Assembly: GCA_038040445.1 (NCBI GenBank)
Contig: JBBPIG010000007.1
Location: forward strand, 1-64,000
Direction of reading: 5' to 3'
Source: Acidobacteriota bacterium
GTDB lineage: Bacteria > Acidobacteriota > Blastocatellia > UBA7656
DNA length: 64,000 bases
Shown: piece by piece, positions 9,405 through 47,930 of the stretch
Position numbering within the stretch: the first letter of the stretch is position 1
Layout: each line of letters opens with the position of its first letter
Notes under the pieces: model-generated
Told to the model about the DNA's origin: nothing
The model's input: only the letters and a program-made list of their open reading frames with translations
Database searches by the model: none
Program-made: the position numbers and the translations under genes

Positions 9405-9630
9405 TTCTTTTTCTCGAGCACGCGGTCGTCCAATCATATGCCGATCGCAATATCATACCAAGCGAATTCCGAACTGGGCTGTGCGCCTTACGCGGTCGCG
9501 GTCTGACAATTGCACGGGCACTAATGAACCCACCTCCGACGCATTCATGCCACGAGGGGGTTGAGTGGTGCATGAGGGCAATCAGTTCCGACGAAGTTCA
9601 GTTTGTGAACTGAGTCGTCTATGCGACGCT

Positions 9631-9882
9631 ATGGATTCAGATCAATCACGCTTGAGGGAGCCAACCCCGGATTTGGATCACAATCCGGACGTTGATCATC
9701 AGCCGCCTCCATCCGACCTTCCACCAGACATTGATAAGGGCAGGCCGGTAAGAATACCTCCCGATCCGCCAGGGTTTCCGGAGGAGAATCAGCCGGACCC
9801 GCCACCTGAAGGCGATCCTCCAGGAAACGAGCCTACCCGGCTGTTCGACGCAACCTACCAGGACCCTGCGTCCGACTGCTAA
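9631..9882 (+). CDS. Small acidic proline-rich hypothetical protein
   Basis: A possible 83-residue protein with no Cys except near the end and a composition dominated by Pro, Asp, Glu and Gly (runs such as P-D-P-P-P-E-G-D-P-P-G). Low-complexity, probably disordered. No signal peptide, no clear ribosome binding site and no recognised family. Its unusual but coherent composition argues for a real gene, yet it may be chance. Nothing else coding is seen in 9405-10177. Confidence 0.4.
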   Translation: MDSDQSRLREPTPDLDHNPDVDHQPPPSDLPPDIDKGRPVRIPPDPPGFPEENQPDPPPEGDPPGNEPTRLFDATYQDPASDC

Positions 9883-10177
9883 ACGCTTCGCGTAGCGCCG
9901 CATTCAACTAATAAGCTCAATTGCTAAAAGCGATTCGATGATCGTCAATCGATGCACACGTACCGTCAAACTGCCTAGAATTTCGTACGAGGTGTAGGAA
10001 ACCAAGACACGGAAGTGCCACCGGGAGCGGCATCCGTATTGCACTTACCTCAAGCGACGAGGGCGTCCATTTAGTTGCGTATGCAGCGGAGGCTTGATTC
10101 AACCAGCGGGGTAGTCGCTAAGAAGGCACCCATTAAACACGGATCGAACCCAACCTGGAGCTATTTGGAGGTAAACC

Positions 10178-12526
10178 ATGTACACACTAAGGCAGTTCAT
10201 TTCAGCCGCTCTTCTGGTCGCGCTGACGATTACGACGATCGTTGGCGGCCTGAGCGTTTCGGCGCAACAGCGTTCGTTTAGCGTCAGCGAACAAGAAGTC
10301 GATCAGCTTCTCCGGCGCATCGAGATGCGATCGACACGGTTTCGTCAGGACGTCTTGCCGGCGCTTAATCAGACCCGAATCGACGGGACTAGGCAAGAAG
10401 ACAGAATCACTGACCTCGTCCGAAACTTTGAAGCTGTGACCGCAACTCTGCGGGACCGTTTCAGACAAAGACGTGACGTGGCCGGCGATGTCCGCGAAGT
10501 ATTAAACCAGGCCGCGCTCATCGATCGCTTCATGACGCGCATTCGCGTCGATGCAAACGCGGAACGGAGCTGGTCCGAGATTCGATCGGATCTCGAAGTG
10601 CTGGCACGCTACTACAACGTCACGTGGCGTTGGGACGCGGGGACGAGCGTTTCGGCGCAACAGCGTTCGTTTAGCGTCAGCGAACAAGAAGTCGATCAGC
10701 TTCTCAGGCGCATTGAGATGCGATCGACACGGTTTCGTCAGGACATCTTGGCGGCGCTTAATCAGACCTCGATCGACGGGACCAGGCAAGAAGACAGAAT
10801 CAGTGACCTCGTCCGAAACTTTGAAGCTGCGACCGCAACTCTGCGGGACCGTTTCAGACAAAGACGTGACGTGGCCGGCGATGTTAGCGAAGTATTAAAT
10901 CAGGCCGCGTTCATCGATCGCTTCATGGCGCGTAATCGTCTTGGGGCAAACGCGGAACGGACCTGGTCCGAGCTTCGTTCGGATCTCGAGGTGCTGACGC
11001 GCTACTACAACGTCACCTGGCGTTGGGACGCGGGGACCAGCGTTTCGGCGCAACAGCGTTCGTTTAGCGTCAGCGAACAACAAGTCGATCAGCTTCTCGG
11101 GCGCATTGAGACGCGATCGACACGGTTTCGTCAGGACATTTTGCCGGCGCTTAATCAGACCCCGATCGACGGGACCAGGCAAGAAGACAGAATCAGTGAC
11201 CTCGTCCGAAACTTTGAAGCTGCGACCGCAACTCTGCGGGACCGTTTCAGACAAAGACGTGACGTGGCCGGCGATGTTAGCGAAGTATTAAACCAGGCCG
11301 CGTTCATCGATCGCTTCATGGCGCGCAATCGCCTTGAGGCAAACGCGGAACGGAGCTGGTCCGAGCTTCGTTCGGATCTCGAGGTGCTGGCGCGCTACTA
11401 CAACGTCACCTGGCGTTGGGACGCGGGGACCGGGACGCCTGGACGCGTTGGGGGTAACGGACCGGGGCGGGGTCAGGCGGCACGCCTCCTAACAGGGACC
11501 TATCGCTTGGATCCTGCCCGAAGCGACAGGGTAGGGAGAGCAGCAAAGATTGCGACGCGCGGGGTTTCGCCTGCAGAGCAGCAACGTCTCCGCGAGATGC
11601 TCTCGCGGCGCCTGGAAGCGCCGGAGATGATCGCCATTCAACGCGAGGGTCGTAACGTTACGATCGCTTCGACCCGCGCGCCACAGGTTACCTTTGAGGC
11701 GGACGGACGCGACAGAGTGGAGCAGACGCCGCGGGGGCGCACCATTCGCGTCAATGCCAGACTCATCGGAGATCAACTGGTAGTCACGCAGACCGGCGAC
11801 CGGGGTAACGATTTCACCGTAACTTTCGATGCGGTTGCCAACGGCCGCGAGCTTCGTGTCACCCGCCGTATGGAAGTTGAAAGTCTGACTGAGCCGGTAT
11901 TGGTTACCAGTTCCTACAACAAAACTTCAGAGGTTGCTCAGTTGGATTTGTACAGAGAAACCTCTCCGGTTGTAGGAAGCGGTGTGGGAACGTCGGACAG
12001 CACACAGCTAGTCGCGATTCTCGACAACGCGCTGTCCACCAGACAGGCACGTGAGGGCGACCGCTTTACCATGACCGTTCGATCGCCGTCACAGTATGAC
12101 GGCGCCGTAATCGAAGGCAATCTCGGCCGCGTTGGCCGCTCGGGTAGGGTTACGGGGCGACCCGAGCTCGCGATGAATTTCGAGCGAATTCGCATGCGAA
12201 ACGGAGTGACCCGTCCATTCGACGGCTATATCGAGAGCGTCCGTACTCCGAACGGAGAGGACGTACGGGTTGATAACGAGGGGATCGTATCCGAACGTAA
12301 TAGCCAGACCACGACTACGGTGGCGCGTACGGGCATCGGCGGCGCCCTCGGCGCAATCATCGGGGCAATCGCGGGTGGAGGCAAGGGCGCGGCTATCGGG
12401 GCGGCAGTTGGCGCAGGCACCGGAGCAGGCTCGGTCTACATTCAGGGCCGCGACGATCTCGAATTGATCAGGGGCACCGAGTTCACGATTCGCGCCAACG
12501 CGAATCGAGATCAGCCCGGCGATTAA
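10178..12526 (+). CDS. Secreted protein with three tandem 131-residue modules and glycine zipper
   Basis: 782 residues, GGAGGT at 10167-10172 before ATG. A signal peptide ends in S-V-S-A-Q-Q near residue 31. Three almost identical 131-residue modules follow, each beginning [10 protein letters not shown] and ending [12 protein letters not shown]; they are helical and Arg-rich. A Gly-rich linker (about 420-435) leads to a beta-rich region (about 440-600), then a domain with repeated G-x-V and G-R motifs (about 610-710) and a C-terminal glycine zipper ([17 protein letters not shown]) near 725-755. It is probably envelope-associated. I do not recognise the module; its function is unknown. Confidence 0.88.
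10253..11431 (+). repeat. Three 393-bp tandem coding repeats
   Basis: Units start at 10253, 10646 and 11039, a period of exactly 393 bases (131 codons). Units differ by scattered substitutions only, with no indels, and units 2 and 3 are closest to each other. Each unit begins with the end of the signal peptide, showing the duplication took in the cleavage-site codons. Confidence 0.95.
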
Positions 12527-12951: not shown

Positions 12952-14457
12952 TTAGTTGTTGTTCGACAGGTTGTGTTTCTTGATCATGCTGTAAAGCCGC
13001 GGCCGATAAACGCCGAGAAGGTTAGCCGCTGCTTGCTTGTTGCCGCCCGTGCGGTCAAGCGCGGCTCCGACTATTGCGCGTTCGACCTCGCCGAACACGT
13101 TGACCGGCTCGCCTCCGGACTTGGGGTCCGGCACCTTCTCGACGATTATTCTGCCGAGCTCCTCGAAGGAAAATTCCTTCGGGCCCACCGGCTGTTGTAT
13201 GGGATCTACAGTGGTTGGTCCGGCTCTCGATGTAGAGACGCTTCCGCTTGTCGCGCCGGCCGCGGCCACTGCCGACACCGCTCTCACCGCCTGCCCGTAG
13301 GGCAAGGGTTCGAGTTCTATCGTACCGGTCTTGCATAGAAGCACCGCGCGTTCGATGGTGTGCTGAAGCTCGCGCACGTTGCCAGGCCACGAATACTCAA
13401 ACAGCCGCTGATAAGACTCCTGTGACATTTTGCACACGGGGCGCTGATACTTCGCGGCCATTTCCTTTAGAAAGTGGTCGGCCATGTGCTGAATGTCCTC
13501 GACACGGTCGCGCAGCGGCGGCACGTGGATCTCGATCGTGTTGATCCGATAGTAAAGATCCTCGCGCAAACGTCCTTCGCGCATCGCCTCGTGCGGATTG
13601 CAATTGGTCGCCGATATGAGCCGGAAGTCGGCCTCCTGGGCCTTCTCGCTCCCCAACCGGTAATAAACTCGCTCCTGGAGGACTCGCAGCAACTTGGGCT
13701 GCAACTCAACGGGCATCTCGGCGATCTCGTCGAGCAAAAGACTTCCGCTATCGGCCCGGCTGATGAGCCCAGTCTTATCCATCGCCGCCCCGGTGAACGC
13801 CCCTTTGGTGTGCCCGAACAACTCCGACTCGATCAGCTCCTTGGGCAGAGCCGAGCAATTAATCTTGACGAAGGGCTTCTTGGCCCGGCTGCTCTTGTAG
13901 TGAATGGCGTTGGCGATCAGCTCCTTGCCGGTTCCCGATTCTCCAACGATCAAAATGTTGGCGTCACTTTCGGCGACGCTGTCGATCATCTCGTAGATGT
14001 CTTGCATTGCTTTGCTGCTGCCGATGATGTTGTAGTATGAGGCGCGGTTGGTCAGGCGGCCGCGCAGTTGTTTGATTTCTTCGGCTTGCTGCCGCCGTTC
14101 GATCGCCTTTTCGATCAACACCATCAGCTCTTCAAACTCTACGGGCTTCTCAACAAAGTAGAACGCGCCGGCCTTGGTCGCTTCGACTGCTTTTGATACC
14201 GAGCCATGCCCGGAAATCATGATGATCTCGGTTTCGGGCGAGATCTCCTTGAGCCGCTTGACGACTTCGATTCCACCCAGATCGGGAAGCTGCAGATCCG
14301 TGAGGACCACGGCGAAGTAACTGTCCTCGACCAGCTTCAGTCCTTGTTCGCCCGTTTCGGCGCGCCTCGTTTCATACCCTCGAGCCTGAAGATGAAACTC
14401 CGCGAGCTCGAGCATGTTCTGGTCATCGTCAATTATCAGGACTCTTGTCTTAGTCAT
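12952..14457 (-). CDS. NtrC-family sigma54-dependent response regulator
   Basis: 501 residues. Receiver domain 1-120 with D10-D11-D12 acidic pocket, phosphoacceptor Asp54 (V-L-T-D-L-Q-L-P) and Lys in V-E-K-P-V. AAA+ domain about 140-375 with Walker A G-E-S-G-T-G-K-E, the sigma54-contact loop G-A-F-T-G-A, Walker B region S-L-L-L-D-E and the arginine finger region R-E-D-L-Y-Y-R. A low-complexity Ala/Ser linker (about 390-415) precedes a Fis-type helix-turn-helix (G-G-N-K-Q-A-A-A-N-L-L-G). It lies 111 bases downstream of the hybrid histidine kinase on the same strand, so the two are probably partners. Its targets are not evident here. Confidence 0.95.
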   Translation of the reverse strand: MTKTRVLIIDDDQNMLELAEFHLQARGYETRRAETGEQGLKLVEDSYFAVVLTDLQLPDLGGIEVVKRLKEISPETEIIMISGHGSVSKAVEATKAGAFYFVEKPVEFEELMVLIEKAIERRQQAEEIKQLRGRLTNRASYYNIIGSSKAMQDIYEMIDSVAESDANILIVGESGTGKELIANAIHYKSSRAKKPFVKINCSALPKELIESELFGHTKGAFTGAAMDKTGLISRADSGSLLLDEIAEMPVELQPKLLRVLQERVYYRLGSEKAQEADFRLISATNCNPHEAMREGRLREDLYYRINTIEIHVPPLRDRVEDIQHMADHFLKEMAAKYQRPVCKMSQESYQRLFEYSWPGNVRELQHTIERAVLLCKTGTIELEPLPYGQAVRAVSAVAAAGATSGSVSTSRAGPTTVDPIQQPVGPKEFSFEELGRIIVEKVPDPKSGGEPVNVFGEVERAIVGAALDRTGGNKQAAANLLGVYRPRLYSMIKKHNLSNNN

Positions 14458-18189: not shown

Positions 18190-18268
18190 ATTGGCGATTG
18201 CCGATTGGCGATTTCGGAGTTGATCTGGATCGACCCCAATTCGTAATCGGCAATCGGCAATCGGCAAT
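18190..18268. repeat. ATTGSCG heptamer inverted repeat
   Basis: Three ATTG(G/C)CG heptamers (18190-18210) are followed after 34 bases by three inverted AATCGGC heptamers (18245-18265). They start one base after the ligase stop and run into the glycosyltransferase start at 18270. The same heptamer follows the second ligase at 21402. Confidence 0.85.
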
Positions 18269-18269
18269 C

Positions 18270-21401: not shown

Positions 21402-21429
21402 ATTGCCGATTGCCGATTGGCGATTGGCG
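21402..21429. repeat. ATTGSCG heptamer tandem repeat
   Basis: Four consecutive ATTG(G/C)CG units start at the base after the ligase stop. No inverted partner is seen here, unlike at 18190-18268. Confidence 0.85.
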
Positions 21430-21470
21430 ATTTTCGATTGAAGATTTGGCGTTCATCTTGTGAGGAACCG

Positions 21471-32858: not shown

Positions 32859-34190
32859 ATGAAGAAGGAGACTTCACCTGAGACAGAAGACGAATTGCGG
32901 CCCGAATACGATCGGAGTGAAAACGTGGTCCGAAAGCTTTTTCCTTTCTTGATCCTCGCGACCTTAGCTGCCGGTTCGGTGTACGCTGATAACTGGCCGC
33001 AGTGGCGCGGTCCGTTTCTAAACGGCGTCAGCGCCGAAAAGAACCTGCCTTTCAAGTGGAGTGCCGAGGAGAACGTCACCTGGAAGCTCACCTTGCCGAG
33101 CTGGACCGGCGCGACCCCCATCATCTGGGGCGAGCGCATCTTTCTGAACGTCGCCGATGGAAACGACCTGTTCCTTTGGTGCGTGGACCGAACGAAAGGC
33201 GAGCCCCTCTGGAAGAAGCTTCTTGGGAGCGGCAACACCAAGATGCGCAAACAGAACATGTCGTCGCCTTCGCCGGTCACCGACGGCAAGAGCGTTTGGG
33301 TGATGACCGGGACCGGCATCCTCAAGGCATTCGACTTCAGCGGCGTCGAGCTGTGGGCGCGCGATGTACAGAAAGACTATGGGCGCTTCGGCTTGAATTG
33401 GGGATACGCATCGTCGCCGCTGCTCTATGAAGACGCGTTGTTTGTTCAAGTGCTTCACGGTATGAGGACCGACGATCCGTCTTACGTGATGCGGCTGGAC
33501 AAGAAGACAGGCAAGACTCTTTGGAAGGTCGAGCGCCCGACAAATGCGATCAGCGAATCGCCTGACTCCTACACGACTCCCGCGCTTCTGAAGTACGGCA
33601 AAAACGTCGAGATTGTGATCACCGGCGGCGATTGCGTGACCGGTCACGATCCGGCAACGGGCAAGGAACTTTGGCGCGCGAACGGACTGAACCCCGACAA
33701 CCATCCCAACTATCGAATCGTCGCGTCTCCGGTCGTGTTCGAAGGCGTCGTGTACGCGCCGACCAGAGTAAAGCCGCTGCTGGCTCTTAAAGCTGGCGGG
33801 CGCGGCGACGTGACCGAATCAAGCCGCCTCTGGGCGTTCGCCAACGGGCCCGATGTTCCGACCCCGGTGACCGACGGCAAGTATTTCTATGTTGTCGACG
33901 ACCGGGGCATCATGTGGTGCCTCGACGCCAAGACAGGTCAGGCCATCTGGGGACCGCAGCGCATCAAGCCGGCGACGTACAGTTCATCGCCGGTGCTGGC
34001 CGACGACAAGCTTTACGTCACCAACGAAGAAGGGCTAACGACGGTGTTGAAGGCGGGCCCGAAGTTCGAGGTGCTGGCCGAGAACAACTTGAACGATTAC
34101 ACGCTCAGCTCGCCGGCTGTTTCGGACGGGCAGATCTTCATGCGAACCGCTCAGTATCTCTACTGTATCGGTAAGCGAGTATCGAAGTAG
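32859..34190 (+). CDS. Secreted PQQ-like beta-propeller protein 3
   Basis: 443 residues from ATG 32859, but the signal peptide ([12 protein letters not shown]) begins only at residue 25, after an acidic leader. A GTG at 32925, preceded by GGAG, would start exactly at the signal peptide and may be the true start; a TATACT box at 32847-32852 would place transcription initiation near 32859, which favours the GTG. Mature protein opens D-N-W-P-Q-W-R-G-P with S-A-E-E-N-V-T-W-K. Blades include [11 protein letters not shown] and [11 protein letters not shown]. It ends at the heptamer repeat that separates it from propeller 4. Confidence 0.87.
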
Positions 34191-34330
34191 TTCAGGGTTC
34201 CGGGTTCCGAGTTCCGGGTTCAGAGTTCAACCTTCAGGCTGCATTAGCGGAATACCAGCAGCAAGCTAAAGCTTGAACTCTGAACCCTGAACTCTGAACT
34301 CGGAACCCTGAACCCGGAACCCTGAACTCT
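34191..34330. repeat. GTTC-type heptamer inverted repeat
   Basis: About five heptamers of the form GTTC(A/C)G(G/A) (34191-34229) face about eight inverted copies (34275-34330), with a central segment containing TTCAACCTTCAGGCT. It begins at the base after the propeller 3 stop and ends 13 bases before the propeller 4 start, filling the whole gap. Confidence 0.88.
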
Positions 34331-47778: not shown

Positions 47779-47930
47779 GCAGAAGGGAGTAGGCAGCCGA
47801 CATTCAGTAGGTAGAAATCAAAACGGAGTCGAAAGGTAGGATGCCTGCTTTTGTTCCTACTCACTTTCTGCCTTCTGCTTTCTGCCTTCTGCCTTCTGCC
47901 TTCTGCCTTCTGCTTTCTGCCTTCCTCCTA
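47753..47930. repeat. CTTCTGC heptamer inverted repeat
   Basis: Eight perfectly phased (C/T)TTCTGC units occupy 47865-47920; the opposite orientation (AGAAGGC, GGCAGAAGG, GTAGGCAG) appears at 47753-47800. The element covers the 3' ends of both convergent genes around it (DoxX stop at 47778, nuclease-like stop at 47928). Confidence 0.9.

Follow-up and report, generated by a model that had tools for sequence, protein, structure and literature searches.

The 782-residue protein described here, encoded by an Acidobacteriota bacterium, is best explained as an envelope scaffold that is anchored in the outer membrane and carries a variable number of helical modules, an explanation to which we give about an even chance and in which the function is read from predicted structure. 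Its gene lies in a stretch of 64,000 nucleotides (GCA_038040445.1, JBBPIG010000007.1, positions 1-64,000), which is called the window hereafter. The export signal is evident from the sequence as a predicted signal peptide. The protein would leave the cytoplasm by Sec export and be cut once by signal peptidase, at residues 29/30; its C-terminal domains would then enter the outer membrane by way of their glycine zippers, probably as assemblies, like the antennae of VirB10, and thereby anchor the protein. A beta-barrel and the helical bundles, strung like beads on flexible linkers, would hang in the periplasm or point to the outside and bind ligands or partners, and the number of modules would set reach or avidity. 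The original prediction had centered on the reuse of the signal-peptide end in three tandem repeats, but the C-terminus has turned out to be the more interesting part.

Reading frame, repeat array and predicted folds

The features considered below are as follows.

10167..10172, + strand: Shine-Dalgarno sequence GGAGGT
10178..12526, + strand: whole protein, a single open reading frame of 782 aa with an ATG start
10178..10264, + strand: signal peptide, aa 1-29, predicted cleavage SVSA/QQ (maximum 10-residue hydropathy 2.75)
10253..10645, + strand: repeat unit 1, 131 aa, its opening four codons doubling as the signal-peptide end; bundle aa 38-145 (Tandem Repeats Finder, AlphaFold2)
10646..11038, + strand: repeat unit 2; bundle aa 169-276 (same sources)
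11039..11431, + strand: repeat unit 3; bundle aa 300-407 (same sources)
10646..10663, + strand: internal copy of the signal-peptide end, SVSAQQ, aa 157-162, in a linker (pLDDT <50 at 156-162)
11039..11056, + strand: second internal copy, SVSAQQ, aa 288-293, in a low-confidence linker (sequence, AlphaFold2)
11474..11929, + strand: FABP/lipocalin-like (calycin-type) beta-barrel, aa 433-584 (predicted fold)
11987..12511, + strand: VirB10-CTD-like beta domain, aa 604-778 (fold of the predicted model, sequence bridge)
12314..12430, + strand: glycine zipper PF13441, aa ~713-751, between strands of the C-terminal domain (Pfam, model)
12952..14457, - strand: convergent neighbor, a response regulator gene of sigma-54-activator type by sequence; synteny marker shared with genome G005

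Tandem Repeats Finder detects a sole array in the reading frame, at 10253-11431, with a period of 393 bp, 3.0 copies, 94% matches and 0% indels, and all three units open with AGCGTTTCGGCGCAACAG (SVSAQQ), in which SVSA corresponds to the last four codons of the signal peptide; the exact frame and the shared opening that had been predicted are thus confirmed. Copies 1 and 2 differ at 30 of 393 nucleotides, copies 1 and 3 at 25, and copies 2 and 3 at 12 (92-97% identity), and the corresponding amino acid differences are 14, 14 and 8 of 131 (89-94%), copies 2 and 3 being the closest pair and copy 1 more diverged. The term near identical, used originally for the repeats, holds for the high nucleotide identity but goes too far for copies that remain distinguishable, and since they can be distinguished, a collapsed or echoed assembly is an unlikely source of the array. 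In a lag-393 self-comparison the identity falls to background right outside the array on both sides, which excludes a chance repeat. Across the window, Tandem Repeats Finder reports mostly heptamer arrays or multiples thereof; arrays with a 7-bp period lie at 18245-18269, 21402-21451, 34190-34228, 34274-34327 and 47866-47924, and their units differ (AATCGGC, ATTGCCG, GTTCCGG, TGAACCC, TTCTGCC). No Rfam match is present in the window, and a short reading frame just upstream of the gene (9565-9882, 105 aa) lacks a Pfam match and is rich in proline in its C-terminal half.

A full-length AlphaFold2 model, made from a 30-row alignment, reaches a mean pLDDT of 79 with a pTM of 0.37, so that the placement of the domains relative to each other is undefined. 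Structure prediction of a module had been proposed as a check, and the full-length model shows three separate four-helix bundles, each with a pLDDT of about 90, connected by linkers below about 60. Because the bundles are confident and because the module also makes up short proteins of its own in Blastocatellia and cyanobacteria (about 150-190 aa; those inspected have a signal peptide), the repeat unit is, on the predicted structure, a real domain. By sequence, the module finds only chance-level helical matches in Pfam, NCBIfam and PDB. NCBIfam S15 and PqqD were rejected as its identity, since their scores lie far under the cut-offs, and fold matches of the bundle to 8rfe_A (Z 12.3), 7dgu, talin and 3dby were set aside, Z values below about 13 being common for bundles. 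An hhalign comparison with the helical tail at the C-terminus of PG_binding proteins (56%, E 1e-4) is suggestive only of a relationship between this tail and the module. The predicted barrel behind the array, at aa 440-584 in the full-length model, resembles the FABP/lipocalin (calycin) barrels in fold: its model aligns with FABP5 (5ur9_E; VIA Z 10.9, rmsd 3.5, 130 aligned), and Foldseek matches it to fatty-acid-binding proteins (best E 4.4e-5, prob 1.00). It differs from those barrels in having no sequence family match.

Copy number and history of the helical module

A module profile search finds the module in 125 of the 162 Blastocatellia genomes and, beyond this class, in just 8 of those sampled from the phylum. 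Among the matches listed, 56 reading frames have one copy, 38 have two and six have three, with some frames cut by contig ends. The same search finds none in G001, the sole genus mate, and in the own genome of the window the module occurs in exactly three places, all of them in the window array; a search of that genome with the whole protein yields paralogues of the C-terminal domain only, and no further module above threshold. Stand-alone secreted modules are also seen in Trichocoleus/Symplocastrum (L068 3824-4396 and L069 3809-4333; 174-190 aa, about 46% identical). Contamination was rejected as the source of these cyanobacterial loci, because the flanking genes read as cyanobacterial, and a transfer between phyla is possible.

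A gene tree of 38 proteins was built from the remaining domains, with the modules left out. In this tree the window protein (three modules) groups with L014 (one module) and L012 (none) with support 100/99, and with zero to three copies among the relatives, module number must have changed at least nine times. L014, in genome G005, adjoins the same convergent response-regulator gene and a histidine kinase, and these shared neighbors make it a positional orthologue. In a module tree, the three modules of the window form one clade (99/100); module 2 of L011 and module 2 of L016 go back to an older common origin (100/100), and modules 2 and 3 of L008 are adjacent with 86% amino acid identity and low tree support. 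As judged from these trees, the tripling appears specific to the window lineage. It is also relatively recent, as originally proposed. The copy-number variation suspected at the outset is borne out across genera, orthologues having zero, one or three modules, and a copy number fixed in all relatives is not what was found. Orthologues with no module show that certain lineages can do without it.

Copy 1 differs from copy 2 by more synonymous changes than expected (Fisher, p 0.006), and likewise from copy 3 (p 0.025), so purifying selection, judging by these counts, is operating between copies 1 and 2. Such constraint, together with the repeated and independent origin of expansions in the family, speaks against a neutral tandem duplication in which the extra modules would add nothing over the single-module form and would simply be drifting. 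In favor of this explanation, the orthologues manage with one module or none, copies 2 and 3 have a dN/dS of 0.61 with no significant synonymous excess, and family conservation is no lower in the columns where the copies differ than in the others (p 0.64), so that there is no sign of changes avoiding conserved columns. We put neutral drift at roughly one chance in four.

An equally tentative explanation is a length-variable stalk of the type of the Periscope Proteins (SasG, Rib, Sgo_0707; PMC8201768), in which high DNA identity between repeats would let recombination change the number of modules between strains and thereby tune the reach of a functional domain. The window family shares with these proteins tandem folded domains, strong identity at the DNA level and a copy number that varies, and the identity between the window copies, the range of copy numbers with its many changes among the relatives and the independent duplication in L008 all fit. 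It differs from them in having zero to three copies only, in variation that is documented at the level of genera, and in an N-terminal array with nothing distal to it, whereas a Periscope stalk sits between anchor and tip (PMC8201768, PMC9704523). In addition, the low-confidence linkers appear flexible rather than short and rigid, and in the other multi-module proteins examined the modules are more diverged, at 52-82% nucleotide identity, which implies that rapid homogenizing turnover is not the rule.

Internal copies of the signal-peptide end

Where relatives with one module were inspected, it starts directly behind the signal peptide, so that a breakpoint four codons upstream suffices to explain the SVSA copies. 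In both duplications the unit took in the last four codons of the signal peptide, and this places SVSA at the start of copies 2 and 3. The junctions read GGCCTG/AGCG before unit 1, GGGGACG/AGCG and GGGGACC/AGCG internally, and GGGGACC/GGGACG after unit 3. Since the homology at the breakpoints amounts to at most a base or so, the sequence points to an illegitimate first duplication, which may then have supplied the homology for the second. The idea that the signal-peptide end was copied as a by-product of duplication is therefore supported by the in-frame units and their common opening.

Whether the internal sites are cleaved or inert had been left undecided at first, and the evidence favors inertness. 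Nearly all signal peptides of the relatives have a comparable AQ-type end site, in line with the cut predicted at aa 29/30. No hydrophobic stretch lies upstream of either internal SVSA/QQ site by Kyte-Doolittle analysis, the best 10-residue mean being 2.75 for the real signal peptide and 0.37 and 0.12 for the internal sites. Moreover, none of the 17 other non-redundant multi-module proteins has a signal-peptide-end motif between its modules, where the linkers are mostly Asn/Gly/Pro-rich. As the motif is absent from these relatives, no hydrophobic stretch precedes it and it falls in low-confidence linkers, the internal signal-peptide ends are most likely inert linker scars specific to the window array. 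Processing of the copied sites by signal peptidase after export, which would release two or three free helical modules as from a polyprotein, could draw on the same linker position, on the -3/-1 residues (V, A) and trailing QQ kept in all three copies and on the existence of secreted single-module proteins, yet recent duplication alone already predicts the identity of the motif, and with the missing hydrophobic core and the 17 relatives also against it, processing is highly improbable.

The VirB10-like C-terminal domain

In the original reading, the C-terminus added a glycine zipper that might insert in a membrane. The zipper is there, but not as a simple tail: it is inserted in a predicted VirB10-CTD-like beta domain. 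PF13441 scores 29.7 bits against a cut-off of 28.9 with the C-terminal domain alone and 27.1 with the whole protein. The window protein carries the motif of the YMGG-like Gly-zipper proteins described by this 45-position Pfam model, and is unlike them in that the motif lies within a larger VirB10-CTD-like domain, the rest of which the model does not include. No papers on acidobacterial glycine zippers turned up in the literature consulted.

In the full model, where it extends over aa 608-774, the C-terminal domain aligns with the Dot/Icm dome protein DotG (9ngw_A; Z 10.4, rmsd 3.0, 105 aligned). When it was folded alone from 43 sequences (pLDDT 72, with the zipper not confident), the best 14 PDB matches by VIA were all VirB10-type C-terminal domains, with Z from 5.4 to 8.7 and unrelated chains from 4.8; among the 14 are DotG 8.7, Xanthomonas citri VirB10 7.9, ComB10 7.7, TrwE 7.7, CagY 7.7, TraF 7.6 and TraB 7.2. 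Foldseek gave CagY (E 7e-3, prob 1.00). The match of this predicted fold is of moderate significance, with Z of 7-9 on a model of pLDDT 72, and very consistent. A sequence bridge leads in the same direction. The domain profile A4 aligns with profile A6 of Blastocatellia proteins (hhalign probability 100, E 4e-49, 172 columns, to which the glycine-rich part contributes), and matches to Pfam TrbI occur in six of the eight A6 members, at best with 4e-9. The TrbI match of L081 covers positions 1-149 of 188 and most of the zipper, and L079 scores 36 bits against a cut-off of 35 in the genome search and 34.5 in the protein scan. The window protein itself is not listed for TrbI (PF03743) at E 0.1, a single match, at 0.027, occurs among 43 domain relatives, and the bridge-family sequence profile found no VirB10 chain in PDB. 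Because it stays under the TrbI cut-off, the window protein is named VirB10-CTD-like and not VirB10.

In type IV secretion systems (T4SS), the antennae of the VirB10 C-terminal domain form the presumed outer-membrane pore (PMC8770708). The zipper of the window protein likely occupies the antenna position, as indicated by the strand order of the model, alignment ranges that flank the zipper and the L081 match; since the TrbI cut-off is missed and the zipper is of low confidence, this reading rests on position and fold. Placement of the domain in the envelope follows from its fusions in paralogues and relatives: L004 of the own genome (271-2205, C1:389399) joins the same type of C-terminal domain to PG_binding_1, as do proteins of relatives, and ends in helices that may be related to the module, and in L085 (1390-2262) a VirB10-like zipper domain is fused to LysM.

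The window protein is thus like the VirB10/TrbI C-terminal domains (DotG, CagY, ComB10, TraF, TrwE) in its predicted beta-barrel fold and in a zipper inserted where VirB10 appears to carry antenna helices. It is unlike them in having a glycine zipper in that place, N-terminal helical modules and an FABP-like barrel in addition, and a genome in which no T4SS was found. Another explanation is a true VirB10 homologue acting in secretion: the fold and the bridge to TrbI would suit such a T4SS outer-membrane component, but a signal peptide replaces the cytoplasmic tail and inner-membrane helix, the own genome (rated 100% complete, 72 contigs) has no match for the VirB4 ATPase PF03135 and no TrbI above cut-off, and the genes nearby encode an aldo/keto reductase and a two-component system, so we consider this very unlikely. 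Two other loci, L076 of the own genome (574-2238, C5:236861) and L080 (1438-2847), have a weak TrbI match and one apparent transmembrane helix; in both genomes an AAA-type ATPase gene follows, and they possibly represent another non-T4SS VirB10-like system.

On the reading of the window protein as an outer-membrane-anchored scaffold, widespread and unexplained glycine-zipper proteins of Acidobacteriota gain a defined predicted fold and a testable place, namely the antenna in the outer membrane, and become linked to the outer-membrane ring of the T4SS. The family also provides natural variants with 0, 1, 2 and 3 copies of a helical domain for which Pfam has no entry. More generally, though this is doubtful at present, Acidobacteriota may export many stand-alone VirB10-like rings with glycine-zipper antennae, which would serve as non-T4SS outer-membrane pores or anchors with exchangeable, countable periplasmic modules. 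If the ring reading is true, VirB10-type outer-membrane assemblies would extend past secretion machines.
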